Shown here one piece after another: positions 585 to 36,627 of a stretch of DNA of 44,763 nucleotides (positions within the stretch are counted from its first letter, which is position 1; each line of letters begins with the position of its first letter). The stretch lies in the IMG/VR virus record IMGVR_UViG_3300017971_000409, positions 1 to 44,763 of that record; one strand, given 5' to 3'. The stretch comes from a virus. Under the pieces are notes generated by a model, which was not told where the DNA came from, ran no database searches, and saw only the letters and a list, made by a program, of their open reading frames with translations. Position numbers and translations under genes: made by a program.

Positions 585-1442
585 CTAACTGAAAAAGTTC
601 ACGTCCGCTTCACCTTGTACGGGCTGATTTGCCTCGATCAGGCCATGCGCCTGCCCCTTGTCCTTCCTAGCGCAGCCGCGCATGTACTTGAAAAATCCTG
701 CTTGACTACTAACGCCCTCCTCATCCGCGAGATTCACCCACCTCAAGACGGCATCCCAGTGGCGCCCATTATACCTCTGCTCGGCCATGCTAAGCACTTC
801 CCTCCACACGCGCTTCACACCGGCGCTTTTGAATTGCCGCGAGCCCCGCCGCCCCTGGCCGTGACGCACTTTGGTATACTCCTCGAGGATACGTGTGTCA
901 TCCTCGGACGTGGGCTTGTTCGTCTCGGTATCCATTCCTGGAAGGGTGGTGTATAGCGTTGGCTCAGGTGAAGGTTTGCTTTGGGGCGGTTCCGAATTTG
1001 TGCTGTTTGCAAATTCGGGATCTTTTGTCTGTGTAGTCTCTGTAGTAATGTCTGTTAAGGATTGTGAAATTTTTGATAATCCATTCTGTAAAAATTCAAT
1101 AAACAGTTTATGAAATTTTTGATAATCGAAACGATAGTGGACGGTTGGTGATCCATTTGCTCGCTTGATGTCCGTCTCGACTATGCCTATGTCAGATAGC
1201 ATATACACATATTTATTGACTTTGTATTGTGAGAGTAGGGTTTCATCTTCCCATTCCTTGTAGGTCTTGTAAAAGAAGCCGTCAGTACGCTTCCCCTTGT
1301 CACTCCAAAAGATCAATTGAGACAAGAACACACCACCCTCAAGACTTCCCATGAATTTGCAATAGGCCCTCGGAACGCCTATCATGTTGTCCTGTCCAGA
1401 AAAAGCCTTGATCAACTCTTTGAACTCATCGTAATTACTCAT
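585..1442 (-). CDS. Replication-initiator-like winged-helix protein (paralogue of 18001-18978)
   Basis: 285 aa. Residues about 20-120 have the layout of phage/plasmid replication proteins with an N-terminal winged helix: an FLSQLxFW segment, a YKEWE segment, an alternating helix-turn-helix and a V.YRFDYQKF strand. A low-complexity linker rich in Ser, Thr and Pro (about 130-185) leads to a basic C-terminal domain containing RQFKSAGVKRVWREVL. The protein encoded at 18001 shares the FLSQL..W...KEW pattern and domain order. By family it would bind origin DNA and recruit host replication factors; this is inference. It starts at an ATG with AAGGAG upstream, behind a possible TTGCGC/TAATAT promoter. 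Confidence 0.7.
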   Translation of the reverse strand: MSNYDEFKELIKAFSGQDNMIGVPRAYCKFMGSLEGGVFLSQLIFWSDKGKRTDGFFYKTYKEWEDETLLSQYKVNKYVYMLSDIGIVETDIKRANGSPTVHYRFDYQKFHKLFIEFLQNGLSKISQSLTDITTETTQTKDPEFANSTNSEPPQSKPSPEPTLYTTLPGMDTETNKPTSEDDTRILEEYTKVRHGQGRRGSRQFKSAGVKRVWREVLSMAEQRYNGRHWDAVLRWVNLADEEGVSSQAGFFKYMRGCARKDKGQAHGLIEANQPVQGEADVNFFS

Positions 1443-2010: not shown

Positions 2011-2184
2011 CTACCCAACCGACTCAACCGTGATGGCTTCGGCATAGACATAATCTGTTAGTCCATAATCCTCAGCCGCCGCCTCGATTGCCGCCTTCTC
2101 CGCGTCTTCGCGATTTGGTGCCGACACATCCACCTGAACGCAGACTGTAATCTCAACGTTTACACGCCATTCGCTATTATTCAT
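2011..2184 (-). CDS. Hypothetical protein, 57 aa
   Basis: Short frame from ATG 2184 to TAG 2011-2013 behind a perfect TGGAGGTAG site. The product begins MNNSEWRVNVEITVCVQV, then an Ala/Glu-rich helix, then a short strand: a beta-alpha-beta pattern. It resembles small phage proteins in which a strand precedes a DAEKAAIEAA helix. Function unknown. Confidence 0.6.
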   Translation of the reverse strand: MNNSEWRVNVEITVCVQVDVSAPNREDAEKAAIEAAAEDYGLTDYVYAEAITVESVG

Positions 2185-2283
2185 GCTCTACCTCCATAGA
2201 AATAAAACCCATTCTGCCTATATCTTCATGTCATTTTCCATTACAAACACATAACATGGTGTTTCTCCTTTGTCTGTGATAAT
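2185..2283. other. Leader between the candidate sRNA and the 57-aa gene
   Basis: No gene of normal size. A strong AAAGGAG precedes an 8-codon frame on the minus strand (2231-2257, product MLCVCNGK), followed by an 11-codon frame ending at the next gene's start. These could be leader peptides or debris of a decayed gene. Confidence 0.3.
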
Positions 2284-2467
2284 AAAAAACGCCTATGCAC
2301 TTATCTGGACGGTTTGACGGCTCGCGGTTTGATTTAGTACATAGTTGGCAGGCTATATACTAGCCGCAAACCGCCCAGATAAAATCATAGACGTTTGCTT
2401 CAGTGACCGCTTGCTCTTGTTTGTCCTGCTTCGGGATCCGTCAGGCTTGCCAGGCCCTTCCCTCTAC
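2284..2467 (-). ncRNA. Candidate structured small RNA with its own promoter and terminator
   Basis: About 184 nt with no plausible frame. The 3' part folds into one rod. Minus-strand bases 2396-2367 pair with 2316-2287 (25 of 30). CGGC (2366-2363) then pairs with GCCG (2321-2318), and 2362-2353 pairs with 2344-2335 (ten pairs including one wobble) around an eight-base loop. The unpaired 2334-2322 forms a 13-base one-sided bulge that repeats the TCAAACCG of the stem, so an alternative pairing is possible. The rod ends in a run of six T, as in an intrinsic terminator. A TTGCCA-17-TATAAT promoter lies just upstream. Family unknown. Confidence 0.5.
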
Positions 2468-2473
2468 ATGTTT

Positions 2474-2502
2474 ATTATACTACGAATCGCGCAAAATGGC
2501 AA
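2474..2502 (-). promoter_or_regulatory. Promoter for the candidate small RNA
   Basis: On the minus strand TTGCCA (2497-2502), a 17-base spacer and TATAAT (2474-2479). It sits in the last codons of the 2480-2689 gene and fires into the gene-free stretch. Predicted start near 2467. Confidence 0.6.
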
Positions 2503-8065: not shown

Positions 8066-8110
8066 GACACAATTTGACTAAAAAGCGATCAATTTCCGAA
8101 ATTGGTATCA

Positions 8111-8182
8111 AAATGACCGCATGGTTTGCGGTGTGTCTAAATTTAGACACAACCTTGCGGACATATTACTCGTGTAGCACGC
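8111..8182. repeat. 72-bp duplicated boundary element, copy 1
   Basis: Identical to 9292-9363 at 69 of 72 positions. Contains the perfect 20-bp palindrome TGTGTCTAAATTTAGACACA (8132-8151) nested inside CCGCATGGTT/AACCTTGCGG arms. Each copy lies just upstream of a minus-strand promoter and at the 3' end of the preceding small gene. Confidence 0.85.
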
Positions 8183-9261: not shown

Positions 9262-9291
9262 AAAACGGGACGAATTTTGAAGTTCGTCCCG
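9262..9291 (-). terminator. Intrinsic terminator upstream of the XRE operon promoter
   Basis: On the minus strand CGGGACGAA pairs with TTCGTCCCG (9283-9291 and 9266-9274) and is followed by TTTT. It would end transcription arriving from the 9347-10258 genes. Confidence 0.6.
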
Positions 9292-9363
9292 AAATGACCG
9301 CAAGGTTTGCGTTGTGTCTAAATTTAGACACAACCTTGCGGACATATTACTCGCGTAGCACGC
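9292..9363. repeat. 72-bp duplicated boundary element, copy 2
   Basis: Second copy of 8111-8182. The same 20-bp palindrome lies at 9313-9332, here enclosed by perfect CCGCAAGGTT/AACCTTGCGG arms. Confidence 0.85.
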
Positions 9364-14289: not shown

Positions 14290-14307
14290 ATTTTCCTCCA
14301 TTCAATT

Positions 14308-14324
14308 AATATGATTCTATTATA
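14308..14324. repeat. Left arm of 17-bp inverted repeat in the divergent promoter
   Basis: Complement of TATAATAGAATCATATT; exact match to the right arm at 14386-14402. It covers the leftward -10 and start site. A protein bound here and at the partner would affect both operons. Confidence 0.75.
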
Positions 14325-14347
14325 CACCATTATTGAGAAAGGCGCAA
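14319..14347 (-). promoter_or_regulatory. Leftward promoter of the divergent region
   Basis: Minus strand TTGCGC (14342-14347), 17-base spacer ending in ATGGTG, TATAAT (14319-14324). Drives the minus-strand arm beginning with 13876-14289. Confidence 0.75.
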
Positions 14348-14362
14348 GTCTAGGCGTGCGAC

Positions 14363-14391
14363 TTGCAACTATTCCAATAGTGTGATATAAT
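14363..14391 (+). promoter_or_regulatory. Rightward promoter of the divergent region
   Basis: TTGCAA (14363-14368), 17-base spacer, TATAAT (14386-14391). The two -35 boxes sit within an inverted GCAAGTC/GACTTGC pair (14344-14350, 14360-14366). Confidence 0.75.
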
Positions 14392-14402
14392 AGAATCATA
14401 TT
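14386..14402. repeat. Right arm of 17-bp inverted repeat in the divergent promoter
   Basis: TATAATAGAATCATATT, perfect mirror of 14308-14324, covering the rightward -10 and first transcribed bases. Confidence 0.75.
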
Positions 14403-14420
14403 GAGTGAGGGAGAAAGGCA

Positions 14421-18000: not shown

Positions 18001-18978
18001 ATGTATGATAATAATACCACAAATTCCGAAAAAGCGCAAGTACGTATAGTTGACACTCGCCTCGCAACCGTGTTAAAAAGTGACCGCCAGGCCATGTTTT
18101 TGTCTCAGCTTCACTACTGGCTTATGCGCTCCAAGCACTTCAATGACGACAAGGTGTGGGTGTACAATAGTTACAAAGAGTGGCAAAAGCAGTTCCCGTT
18201 TTGGTCATCGCATACCATACGTAGAATTGTCAATGCGCTGGAAGACCTTGAAGTTATTGTTACGGGCAACTATAACAAACGCCCAGGTGATCAGACACGC
18301 TGGTACACGATAAATTATGAGCGAATCGCAGAGCTTTCAAGAGAAACACTGATTGTGTGGCGCGATAGGGTGACTGACCACATGGCCAAAATGGACAAGG
18401 CACATGGCCAAAATGGGCAAACCATTACCATAAGATTACTACAAAAGATTACTCTTGCTCTAGCACCTCCTAACGCTATAGAAGATTCATGTAAAAGTAC
18501 GGATCCGGCTTTTGAGGCAAAAGCCCACGGCACTCCTGTCATTCAAGGAAAAGATGACACTACACCGCCTGATGCTACTACACATCCTGATACTACTACC
18601 TCCATAGCGTCGCCTCCTCAAGTTTTCGCTGAGGATATGGCCGGGTACATGACAGATCAATATGAGGTACGCGTGTATGAGTTGAAGAGCTATGAACTGT
18701 GGTTCGTGCAGATGATGACGATGGCCGTGGGCGATGGGCGCCCGGTGGAGCTTAACGCCAAGCAAAGCGCCAGTCTACGAGACGTGACAGAACGATTCGG
18801 CGGTGACTGGCAACTATTCGCGGAGGCATTGTGTAGCGGTTCAGGTCAGGGAATCAATAGCACGGACAGGATGCTTAACTACTTGACGACGTGCGCAAAG
18901 AACTCCGGCATGTGGCGTGTGCCGATTGACATGGTTGCGGATCCGCCGACGGCGGTTGAAGTAATGACAAGGAGATGA
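18001..18978 (+). CDS. Replication-initiator-like winged-helix protein (paralogue of 585-1442)
   Basis: 325 aa. Residues about 20-115 (TVLKSDRQAMFLSQLHYWLM...YNSYKEWQKQFPFWSSHTIRRIVNALEDLEVI...TRWYTINYERI) share the FLSQL..W...YKEW pattern and winged-helix layout of the other initiator-like protein. A Thr/Pro-rich linker (about 175-200) precedes a different C-terminal domain (about 205-325). With no polymerase or primase in the window, replication would lean on the host. ATG 18001 has GCAGGAGG upstream. Confidence 0.7.
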   Translation: MYDNNTTNSEKAQVRIVDTRLATVLKSDRQAMFLSQLHYWLMRSKHFNDDKVWVYNSYKEWQKQFPFWSSHTIRRIVNALEDLEVIVTGNYNKRPGDQTRWYTINYERIAELSRETLIVWRDRVTDHMAKMDKAHGQNGQTITIRLLQKITLALAPPNAIEDSCKSTDPAFEAKAHGTPVIQGKDDTTPPDATTHPDTTTSIASPPQVFAEDMAGYMTDQYEVRVYELKSYELWFVQMMTMAVGDGRPVELNAKQSASLRDVTERFGGDWQLFAEALCSGSGQGINSTDRMLNYLTTCAKNSGMWRVPIDMVADPPTAVEVMTRR

Positions 18979-20480: not shown

Positions 20481-20717
20481 ATGTGTGATCATGGCGAAGA
20501 TAAGGGCAATACGTGTCTTGACTGGTTCCCGTTTGGCGATGTGTACATGTGTGAGTGTGGAGCAATCCTTGATCTTGCAGATGAACGTAATTTTAAGTAT
20601 GACGGCGCATGGCATACCATGACGCCTAGCGAGCTAAAATCTGCGTTCCGGGCCTACGGCGACGAGATCAAGACAAAGGTCATCGCTGCTGTGAATGACG
20701 TAAAGTTGCGCCATTAA
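20481..20717 (+). CDS. Hypothetical protein with Cys/His N-terminus, 78 aa
   Basis: CDHG...C...CECG in the first 30 residues suggests zinc binding, followed by a helical C-terminus. ATG has AAAGGAG upstream. The promoter for the tRNA overlaps its last codons. Confidence 0.6.
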   Translation: MCDHGEDKGNTCLDWFPFGDVYMCECGAILDLADERNFKYDGAWHTMTPSELKSAFRAYGDEIKTKVIAAVNDVKLRH

Positions 20718-20734
20718 TAATTATGGTGTATAAT
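20706..20734 (+). promoter_or_regulatory. Promoter for the tRNA and lysis genes
   Basis: TTGCGC (20706-20711), 17-base spacer ending in ATGGTG, TATAAT (20729-20734). The predicted start lies about seven bases before the tRNA. Confidence 0.75.
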
Positions 20735-28216: not shown

Positions 28217-28798
28217 ATGAAAGAAATAGCCCACATCAAAGACCTTAAGCCCGACCAAATGAACCCGCGCCGCCGTACCGAGCGCAACCTGCAAATGATT
28301 GAGGCGTCCCTGAATGAAGTGGGCGCAGCGCGCTCCATCGTAGTGGATGAAGACGGCAACATCCTGGCCGGCAACGGCACCATCGAAGCCGCAGCCCTGG
28401 CCGGTATTGAGAAGGTGCGCGTCATTGAAGCTGACGGCGAGACTATTATTGCCGTGCGTAGGTCAGGGCTTACTGAGGAGCAGAAGCGCCGCCTTTCGCT
28501 TTACGATAACCGCGCCGCCGAGTTAGCCGAGTGGGACGCGGCGGTGCTTGGATGCTTGGAGAGTGAGACGCCGGAGGTGACGAAGGGACTGTTCACTGAG
28601 GATGAGTTGCTTTACATTATAGAAAGCGAATTAGGGGAAACAGAGCAGTTATTGAAAGAAGAAACAGAGCGTATCAGACAAAGAAAAATGCTACATGTTC
28701 TCATAAGCGTAGACGTTGACAGGGCAGATGAAGTTAGGGATGCAATAAGCGATTTTGACGAAATTCCAGGAATCGAGGTGCTATATGGTTCAAACTGA
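28217..28798 (+). CDS. ParB-like nuclease-domain protein, 193 aa
   Basis: Residues 1-95 form the ParB/Srx N-terminal domain: IKDLKPDQMNPRR, then LNEVGAARSIVVDEDGNILAGNGTIEAAALAGIEKVRVIEA and EEQKRRLSLYDNRAAE. The GNGT corresponds to the CTP-binding GERR box in divergent form. No HTH follows; the C-terminal half is helical and acidic. Such single-domain ParB proteins are frequent beside phage methyltransferases and terminases. Role uncertain: partition, nuclease or methylation-linked. Confidence 0.75.
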   Translation: MKEIAHIKDLKPDQMNPRRRTERNLQMIEASLNEVGAARSIVVDEDGNILAGNGTIEAAALAGIEKVRVIEADGETIIAVRRSGLTEEQKRRLSLYDNRAAELAEWDAAVLGCLESETPEVTKGLFTEDELLYIIESELGETEQLLKEETERIRQRKMLHVLISVDVDRADEVRDAISDFDEIPGIEVLYGSN

Positions 28799-30217: not shown

Positions 30218-31642
30218 ATGACAACCGCACATAAGTTCAAGCTACCCATCACCTCCGAGGGCGCCCTTCGTGAATTCGTAGAGCTATGCTTCGGCGCATG
30301 TATCCCTGACCAGGTAGTGGTAGAGGGACACTCAACACCGTGGCGGGCCTTCTGTGATGCGTGCTTCGCCAAATCACCTGTTGTCGTGTGGGTAGGTAGT
30401 CGTGGCTTCGCGGGAAAGTCATACCTGCTCGCACTCCTTTCTACCGTAGAGGCATTGACGCAGAAAGCCGATGTGAGTATCCTCGGCGGCAGCTTTGAGC
30501 AGGCAAAGCGGATCCAGGATTACATTACACAATTCTACCGCGCGCAGAACTCACCCAAGCATCTATGGGAAGGCGAACCGCTGACAACATTGCACCGCTT
30601 TGTGTGGGGCAATACGGTCAATGCACTAACGGCATCACAGAAGAGCATTAGAGGGCCACACGCACCCAAGCTGCGCGGGGATGAAGTTGATGAAATGTCC
30701 ATCGACCTCCTAGACGCGGCGTTGGGTCAACCCATGAGTGTGGTAGAAAATGGCAAGGTAGTCATCAAGGCGCAGACCGTCCTTAGCTCCACGCACCACA
30801 AAGCCGATGGCGTTATGACGGAAGTGCTCAAACGCGCCAACAAGCACGGCTGGCCCGTCCACTATTGGGGATACCAAGAGACAAGCGCAGAGGGCGGCTG
30901 GCTTCTCCCTTCCGAGGTAGAAAACAAGCGCACCGTGATCCCGGCGCAAATGTGGAAGGTGGAATATGACCTTAACGAACCGTCACCGGAAGGCCGTGCC
31001 ATTATGCCGGAGAAGGTTGAGCAGATGTTTGATCCCAAATTGGGAACATTTGAAGGGCGCAACGGTGAATACATCGAGATCGAGCCGCCCATGCTTGTGT
31101 GTCCTGTCTGCGGTTGGGAGATCATAGCCGCCGACGCCACGCATAAGAAGTGCGCCGTATGCAAGAGTAAGCTCCGCAATGCCCGCTATGCCACGGGCGC
31201 AGACTGGGCCAAGAAGCAAGATCACACCGTCATTGTTACCATCCGTTATGATGTGTCTCCCTGGCGTCTCGTAGCCTTCGAGCGGCATCAGCGCAAGCCG
31301 TGGCCCAAGATGGTATCACGCTATGACCGCCGTGTTAAACGCTACGGCGGCAAGGCGGCGCATGATGGTACGGGCGTAGGTGACGTGGTAGCCGACTACT
31401 CCACGGTGCGCTCACAGGCTATCATCATGACCGGCAACACGCGCAAGAATATGTTCACAAATCACATTGCGACTGTTGAGGATCGTGGCATAGTTGCGCC
31501 GATGATAAAATGGATGTATAATGAGTACAAGTATGCTGCACGCGACGACCTTTACGGCAGTGGACATCCGCCGGATAGCATAGTCGCCGGGGCGATGTCA
31601 GAGACCGCGATAAAGACACGGCGTGGGATAGGATTCGGGTAA
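30218..31642 (+). CDS. terL: Terminase large subunit, 474 aa
   Basis: ATPase: Walker A variant GSRGFAGKS (60-68) and Walker B LRGDEVDEM (152-160). Nuclease: ATGADWAKKQDHTVIV (about 325-340), HDGTGVGDVV (about 385) and HPPDSIVAGAMS (about 455) place the acidic RNase-H-like triad. It cuts concatemers and drives DNA into the prohead. Between the domains is a four-Cys zinc ribbon (CPVC 295-298, CAVC 312-315), not usual in TerL. ATG follows TTAGGAAC. A TTGCGC/TATAAT promoter lies inside its 3' end. Confidence 0.9.
   Translation: MTTAHKFKLPITSEGALREFVELCFGACIPDQVVVEGHSTPWRAFCDACFAKSPVVVWVGSRGFAGKSYLLALLSTVEALTQKADVSILGGSFEQAKRIQDYITQFYRAQNSPKHLWEGEPLTTLHRFVWGNTVNALTASQKSIRGPHAPKLRGDEVDEMSIDLLDAALGQPMSVVENGKVVIKAQTVLSSTHHKADGVMTEVLKRANKHGWPVHYWGYQETSAEGGWLLPSEVENKRTVIPAQMWKVEYDLNEPSPEGRAIMPEKVEQMFDPKLGTFEGRNGEYIEIEPPMLVCPVCGWEIIAADATHKKCAVCKSKLRNARYATGADWAKKQDHTVIVTIRYDVSPWRLVAFERHQRKPWPKMVSRYDRRVKRYGGKAAHDGTGVGDVVADYSTVRSQAIIMTGNTRKNMFTNHIATVEDRGIVAPMIKWMYNEYKYAARDDLYGSGHPPDSIVAGAMSETAIKTRRGIGFG
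31494..31522 (+). promoter_or_regulatory. Internal promoter within the terminase gene
   Basis: TTGCGC (31494-31499), 17-base spacer with ATGGATG at its end, TATAAT (31517-31522). It would supply the portal and downstream genes independently of the terminase transcript. Confidence 0.6.
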
Positions 31643-36473: not shown

Positions 36474-36610
36474 TGAGTAGGCAATTTTGGATGAAACTAC
36501 GCCAGGGCCTTCTCATGATCGTAGATGCGATTGAGGATGAATTAGGCATGTCGCCCACTACCGCAGAGATACGCCGGGAGTTCAAGACCATGGCGAAGTT
36601 GCGTCCATAG
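36470..36610 (+). CDS. Small helical protein, 46 aa
   Basis: Starts by overlap with the previous stop (ATGATGA). Product MMSRQFWMKLRQGLLMIVDAIE..., helical and basic at both ends; this is a common phage small protein with MSPTTAEIRREFK. Function unknown. Confidence 0.55.
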   Translation: MMSRQFWMKLRQGLLMIVDAIEDELGMSPTTAEIRREFKTMAKLRP

Positions 36611-36627
36611 CGATTATGGTGTATAAT
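36599..36627 (+). promoter_or_regulatory. Promoter for the tail gene block
   Basis: TTGCGT (36599-36604), 17-base spacer ending in ATGGTG, TATAAT (36622-36627). The spacer end is almost identical to that of the tRNA promoter at 20706. Confidence 0.75.

Follow-up and report, generated by a model that had tools for sequence, protein, structure and literature searches.

The stretch of DNA analysed here (the window) is IMG/VR virus record IMGVR_UViG_3300017971_000409, which is 44,763 bases long and classified as linear. Portal and terminase subunits identify it as part of a tailed phage, one almost without close relatives. Genes are read from the minus strand between 0.3 and 14.3 kb and mostly from the plus strand from 14.4 kb onwards. 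The portal gave a 25% match to that of Geobacillus phage GBK2, and a DnaD-like protein matched proteins of Staphylococcus and other (pro)phages and of a Sporosarcina genome at 40-53% over its N-terminal 120 residues, so a Bacillota host is likely. Relatives of the terminase, the portal and a 57-aa protein were found in IMG/VR only on a 73.8-kb twin contig, IMGVR_UViG_3300028840_000888, which matches the window in every base over 14.2 kb apart from six positions at 56-89. These positions fall in a 15-nt tandem repeat that codes for pentapeptide repeats (1-213 of the window), and as both contigs end near this repeat and differ only there in the 14.2 kb compared, it probably broke the assemblies. 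A PAPS-reductase-like gene in the twin (L019:13727-14815) and a ParB-like gene in the window (28217-28798), with several DNA methylases beside them, possibly form a DNA modification set.

The otherwise tightly packed minus-strand gene set is interrupted by a gap of 295 nt (2185-2479). The features in and around this gap, all on the minus strand, are as follows.

2474-2502, minus strand: near-consensus promoter of sigma-A/70 type, TTGCCA-17-TATAAT; the upstream ORF (2480-2704) extends into it with its 3' end
2398-2467, minus strand: 5' leader segment of about 70 nt with little structure of its own (-11.8 kcal/mol vs -16.2 for shuffles)
2366-2398, minus strand: early 5'-arm hairpin GCAAAC...GTTTGC, -12.8 kcal/mol, which excludes the rod; possible antiterminator
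2287-2396, minus strand: rod of 42 bp (terminator stem), paired from 2396/2287 inward, with an 8-nt loop at 2352-2345
2323-2335, minus strand: 13-nt one-sided bulge of the rod, AAATCAAACCGCG, a partial repeat of the 3' arm (CAAACCG)
2284-2289, minus strand: U6 tract, predicted intrinsic terminator, T-tail score 4.9 (a short terminator at 9266 scores 3.4)
2231-2257, minus strand: 8-codon mini-ORF (MLCVCNGK) just past the terminator, with a strong Shine-Dalgarno sequence AAAGGAG (2271-2265)
2011-2184, minus strand: first downstream gene, 57 aa, Shine-Dalgarno GGAGG
585-1442, minus strand: fourth downstream gene, DnaD-like helicase loader / replication initiator (phrog_6493, 8e-27)

The first-pass annotation had described a gene-free minus-strand stretch framed by TTGCCA-17-TATAAT and a T6 run, and both elements proved to be rare here. 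Only four sites scoring at least 11/12, this promoter among them, occur in the 44.8 kb, compared to 0-2 in each of ten shuffled genomes, and T6 runs are limited to 13 overlapping matches on both strands, one of which lies exactly at the 3' end of the rod. Transcription is predicted to start at about 2467, giving a leader of about 184 nt (to 2284) that holds no gene and opens with an A/G-rich, unstructured segment. No leader peptide with a Shine-Dalgarno sequence was found in it; leader-peptide attenuation was rejected because the sole leader ATG (ATGATTTTATCTGGG...) lacks such a site.

The long rod with its 13-base one-sided bulge in the 3' ~110 bases, also proposed from inspection, was borne out by folding. 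Besides this bulge its irregularities are four G-U pairs, one 2x2 internal loop and one 1-nt bulge, and its minimum free energy (MFE) of -58.4 kcal/mol compares with -24.7 +/- 3.3 for 500 dinucleotide shuffles (z about -10). Pair count does not discriminate, as many loose 40-pair folds exist, and the discrimination comes from the shuffles and from GC-corrected energy, for which the rod ranks lowest among all 114-nt windows on both strands, by a small margin over the next-ranked hairpins. The best GC-corrected hairpins at other loci reach similar values, and the rod is therefore exceptional for the window but not for phages generally. The structure is real, and it is probably transcribed and terminates transcription.

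The imperfections of the rod give a hint of the strand on which it acts. Its four non-Watson-Crick pairs all take the form G-U when read from the minus strand, against A-C from the plus, and the minus-strand RNA folds 12 kcal/mol better than the plus strand (-46.0 kcal/mol, z -6.5). This hints, without proving, that the minus-strand RNA is the form that counts; the G-U pairs are only a hint because four in four has a chance of 1 in 16 if transitions are random with respect to strand. The same observations bear on a role as DNA, either as a replication origin hairpin or as a protein-binding cruciform near the DnaD-like gene, in favour of which stands the presence of a large inverted repeat only about 0.8 kb away from the initiator gene. 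An origin hairpin had been put forward as the main alternative to a regulatory RNA, but GC skew is unchanged at 2.3 kb, with its cumulative minimum near 14 kb, no iterons are present at the rod, and the G-U bias and folding energy favour minus-strand RNA, so that a DNA role appears highly improbable. An AT-rich 20-nt direct repeat (1062-1081 and 1108-1127, 95%, 46 nt apart) lies instead inside the DnaD-like initiator gene, and these copies are possible origin iterons. At 14302-14408, the point at which the genes change direction and GC skew changes too, an inverted repeat of 49 nt (78%) is accompanied by back-to-back promoters; this is a candidate for a divergent control region or an origin.

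It had also been suggested that the bulge, by repeating part of the stem, creates two mutually exclusive pairings. The second pairing, of CAAACCGC (2331-2324) with GCGGTTTG, is real in that it can be drawn from the sequence, but the claim was overstated because the bulge register is the less stable one: the penalty is 11.4 kcal/mol for the full-length RNA and 1.9-3.9 kcal/mol relative to the MFE for lengths of 146-160 nt, and this register is the MFE at no transcript length tested. A different competitor is the hairpin at 2398-2366, which belongs to the best predicted fold from about 102 to about 150 nt of transcript, until the rod takes its place. It may serve as an antiterminator, a reading that is no more than suggestive since 13 of 200 shuffles, in a search over the whole 5' arm, matched its energy.

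Beyond the terminator lie co-directional genes for proteins of 57, 113 and 63 aa, the DnaD-like initiator and a 95-aa protein, mostly with good Shine-Dalgarno sites. A second, different DnaD-like helicase loader is encoded at 18001-18978 (plus strand). Between the rod and the first of the downstream genes no promoter scoring at least 9/12 was found, the best reaching 8/12 in what is a consensus scan and not proof. A second internal promoter (9247-9219) also has a terminator nearby, but this one (9291-9266) is upstream of it; at 2.3 kb this order is reversed, with promoter, leader and terminator ahead of co-directional genes.

The element is best read as a terminated 5' leader, an attenuator or antitermination switch with the short RNA as its usual product, to which we give roughly an even chance. 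This reading is preferred because the terminator sits between a promoter and co-directional genes that have no other promoter, and because attenuators and lambda pR'-tR' likewise have the promoter first and the terminator after it. Under plain transcription punctuation, the rod would instead be a strong terminator that ends transcription of the leftward genes upstream, combined with an internal promoter, and the short RNA would be a functionless by-product. The rod and U6 do form a good terminator, and there is no space for one ahead of the promoter because the upstream ORF ends inside it. However, elsewhere in the window terminators are short hairpins, and a promoter that precedes its terminator is useless to the downstream genes without read-through, which leaves punctuation a rather unlikely explanation.

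As a terminated leader, the element could work as follows. RNA polymerase would start at about 2467 on the minus strand and copy the loosely folded 70 nt first, after which the inverted repeat would zip into the 42-bp rod ending at U6; most transcripts would consequently stop at 2284, releasing the RNA of about 184 nt, and minus-strand transcripts arriving from upstream would be halted there as well. The downstream genes would depend entirely on the share of transcripts that passes the terminator, and this share would set the level of the replication operon. Read-through could be a constant leak, could require an antitermination factor of phage or host origin, or could arise when the early 5'-arm hairpin replaces the rod. 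The promoter, rod, U-tract, gene order and lack of a second promoter are read directly from the sequence, while transcription, termination and regulated read-through are inferred. By Pfam, neither a Q-type antiterminator nor a NusG paralogue is encoded in the window or the twin, both of which may be incomplete contigs.

The annotation of the locus as a discrete regulatory RNA of about 184 nt stands in part, as the sequence gives good support for a minus-strand transcript that has a promoter and a terminator of its own. An independent role in trans is unsupported, since homologues and covariation are lacking and the phage translation-start regions gave no target. In such a stand-alone gene the RNA would target mRNAs of the host or the phage, or would serve as a decoy for a protein, and the terminator would lie ahead of the next genes by happenstance. 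The complete transcription unit, its typical small-RNA size, the very stable rod and an open A/G-rich 5' segment that could pair are all consistent with this. Against it, pairing of the open segments with 56 phage translation-start regions did not exceed shuffled controls, the downstream genes would be left promoterless, and relatives were absent from Rfam and from phage, plasmid, GTDB and IMG/VR sequences apart from the identical contig; we consider it unlikely.

The family is indeed an unfamiliar one, as had been noted: Rfam gave no match at the gathering threshold and none with E up to 10, with no riboswitch, 6S or phage pRNA among the results. A 20-mer of the element occurred in IMG/VR only in the twin, the only contig that shares the element, and a 22-mer had no match in GTDB genomes. 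Searches by blastn gave one chance hit at E = 4 against phages and nothing against plasmids. Covariance model R1 recovered from ten records only the element itself, the twin and their reverse strand, and found no homologue in 398 genomes of Sporosarcina's phylum, a search with no positive control and in what is only the likely host phylum. The near-identical twin carries no evolutionary signal for covariation or conservation. An adjacent reverse transcriptase, as for a retron ncRNA, was not found.

A separate structured RNA or DNA element is conserved in prophages with related DnaD-like genes (L003:3890-3981, L004:4276-4367, L005:5402-5493, L007:4066-4156 and L008:4090-4194). It consists of a hairpin GACAAGC-NNNN-GCTTGTC, a stem of 15 bp whose large loop includes CCCCACCTA, and a hairpin GATGC-GTGAAA-GCATC, with a compensatory change (GC/UA/AU) at one stem pair. 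A pattern search matched 33 viral contigs, at least one of them (L047) by chance, and four of the loci had no match in Rfam up to E = 1; it is possibly a Bacillus cereus-group repeat. It is not homologous to the rod of the window.

Other putative control sequences are present in the window. Two 102-nt copies, 84% identical (8081-8182 and 9262-9363), lie upstream of near-perfect promoters at 8065-8037 and 9247-9219; both hold the palindrome TGTCTAAATTTAGACA and are likely operators of a phage regulator. In addition, promoters of the type TTGCG...(T/A)GTATAAT recur at 14319-14347 (minus strand) and at 20706-20734, 31494-31522 and 36599-36627 (plus strand), the copies at 20706 and 36599 having 41 nt in common at 76%, and perhaps represent a phage-specific promoter class.

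The control element at 2.3 kb is sound but ordinary-looking, and without known relatives. Its rod is much longer than termination in an attenuator would require, a hint that it has a further role. The element could be both the attenuator of the replication-initiator operon and the source of a released 184-nt rod RNA with a function in trans. That RNA would target host replication mRNAs, or would serve as a long double-stranded decoy that engages a host RNase or an RNA-sensing defence, although we regard this double role as very unlikely. Phages encode several small RNAs that act in trans, among them PreS and 24B_1 (reviewed in PMC12197685). The RNA described here is likewise a small phage RNA but, unlike these, is without a demonstrated target, chaperone site or homologue.

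Another parallel to the predicted leader is Rli51 of the Gram-positive Listeria, an attenuated 5'UTR that also acts as an sRNA (PMC11394854). Premature termination in the 5'UTR frees a short RNA in Rli51 (121 nt) and would do so here, and alternative terminator and antiterminator folds, the latter putative in the window, can be drawn for both. In Rli51 the antiterminator is the fold with the higher predicted stability, whereas here the alternative is much weaker than the terminator; no sequence relation between the two is expected.

The pR'-tR' leader of phage lambda, about 190 nt long, has the same arrangement of a strong promoter, a short leader closed by an intrinsic terminator, and genes beyond that are reached via read-through only. 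In lambda the intrinsic terminator tR' (PMC4604602) is read through by means of Q/qut (PMC6266700). The window differs in having no Q-family protein by Pfam and a rod much longer than the usual terminator, and its leader precedes small early genes and a DnaD-like initiator instead of late genes. If the terminated leader is real, this single example would mean that premature termination governs the replication-initiator operon in a poorly known lineage of phages, a form of control best known from the late genes of lambda.
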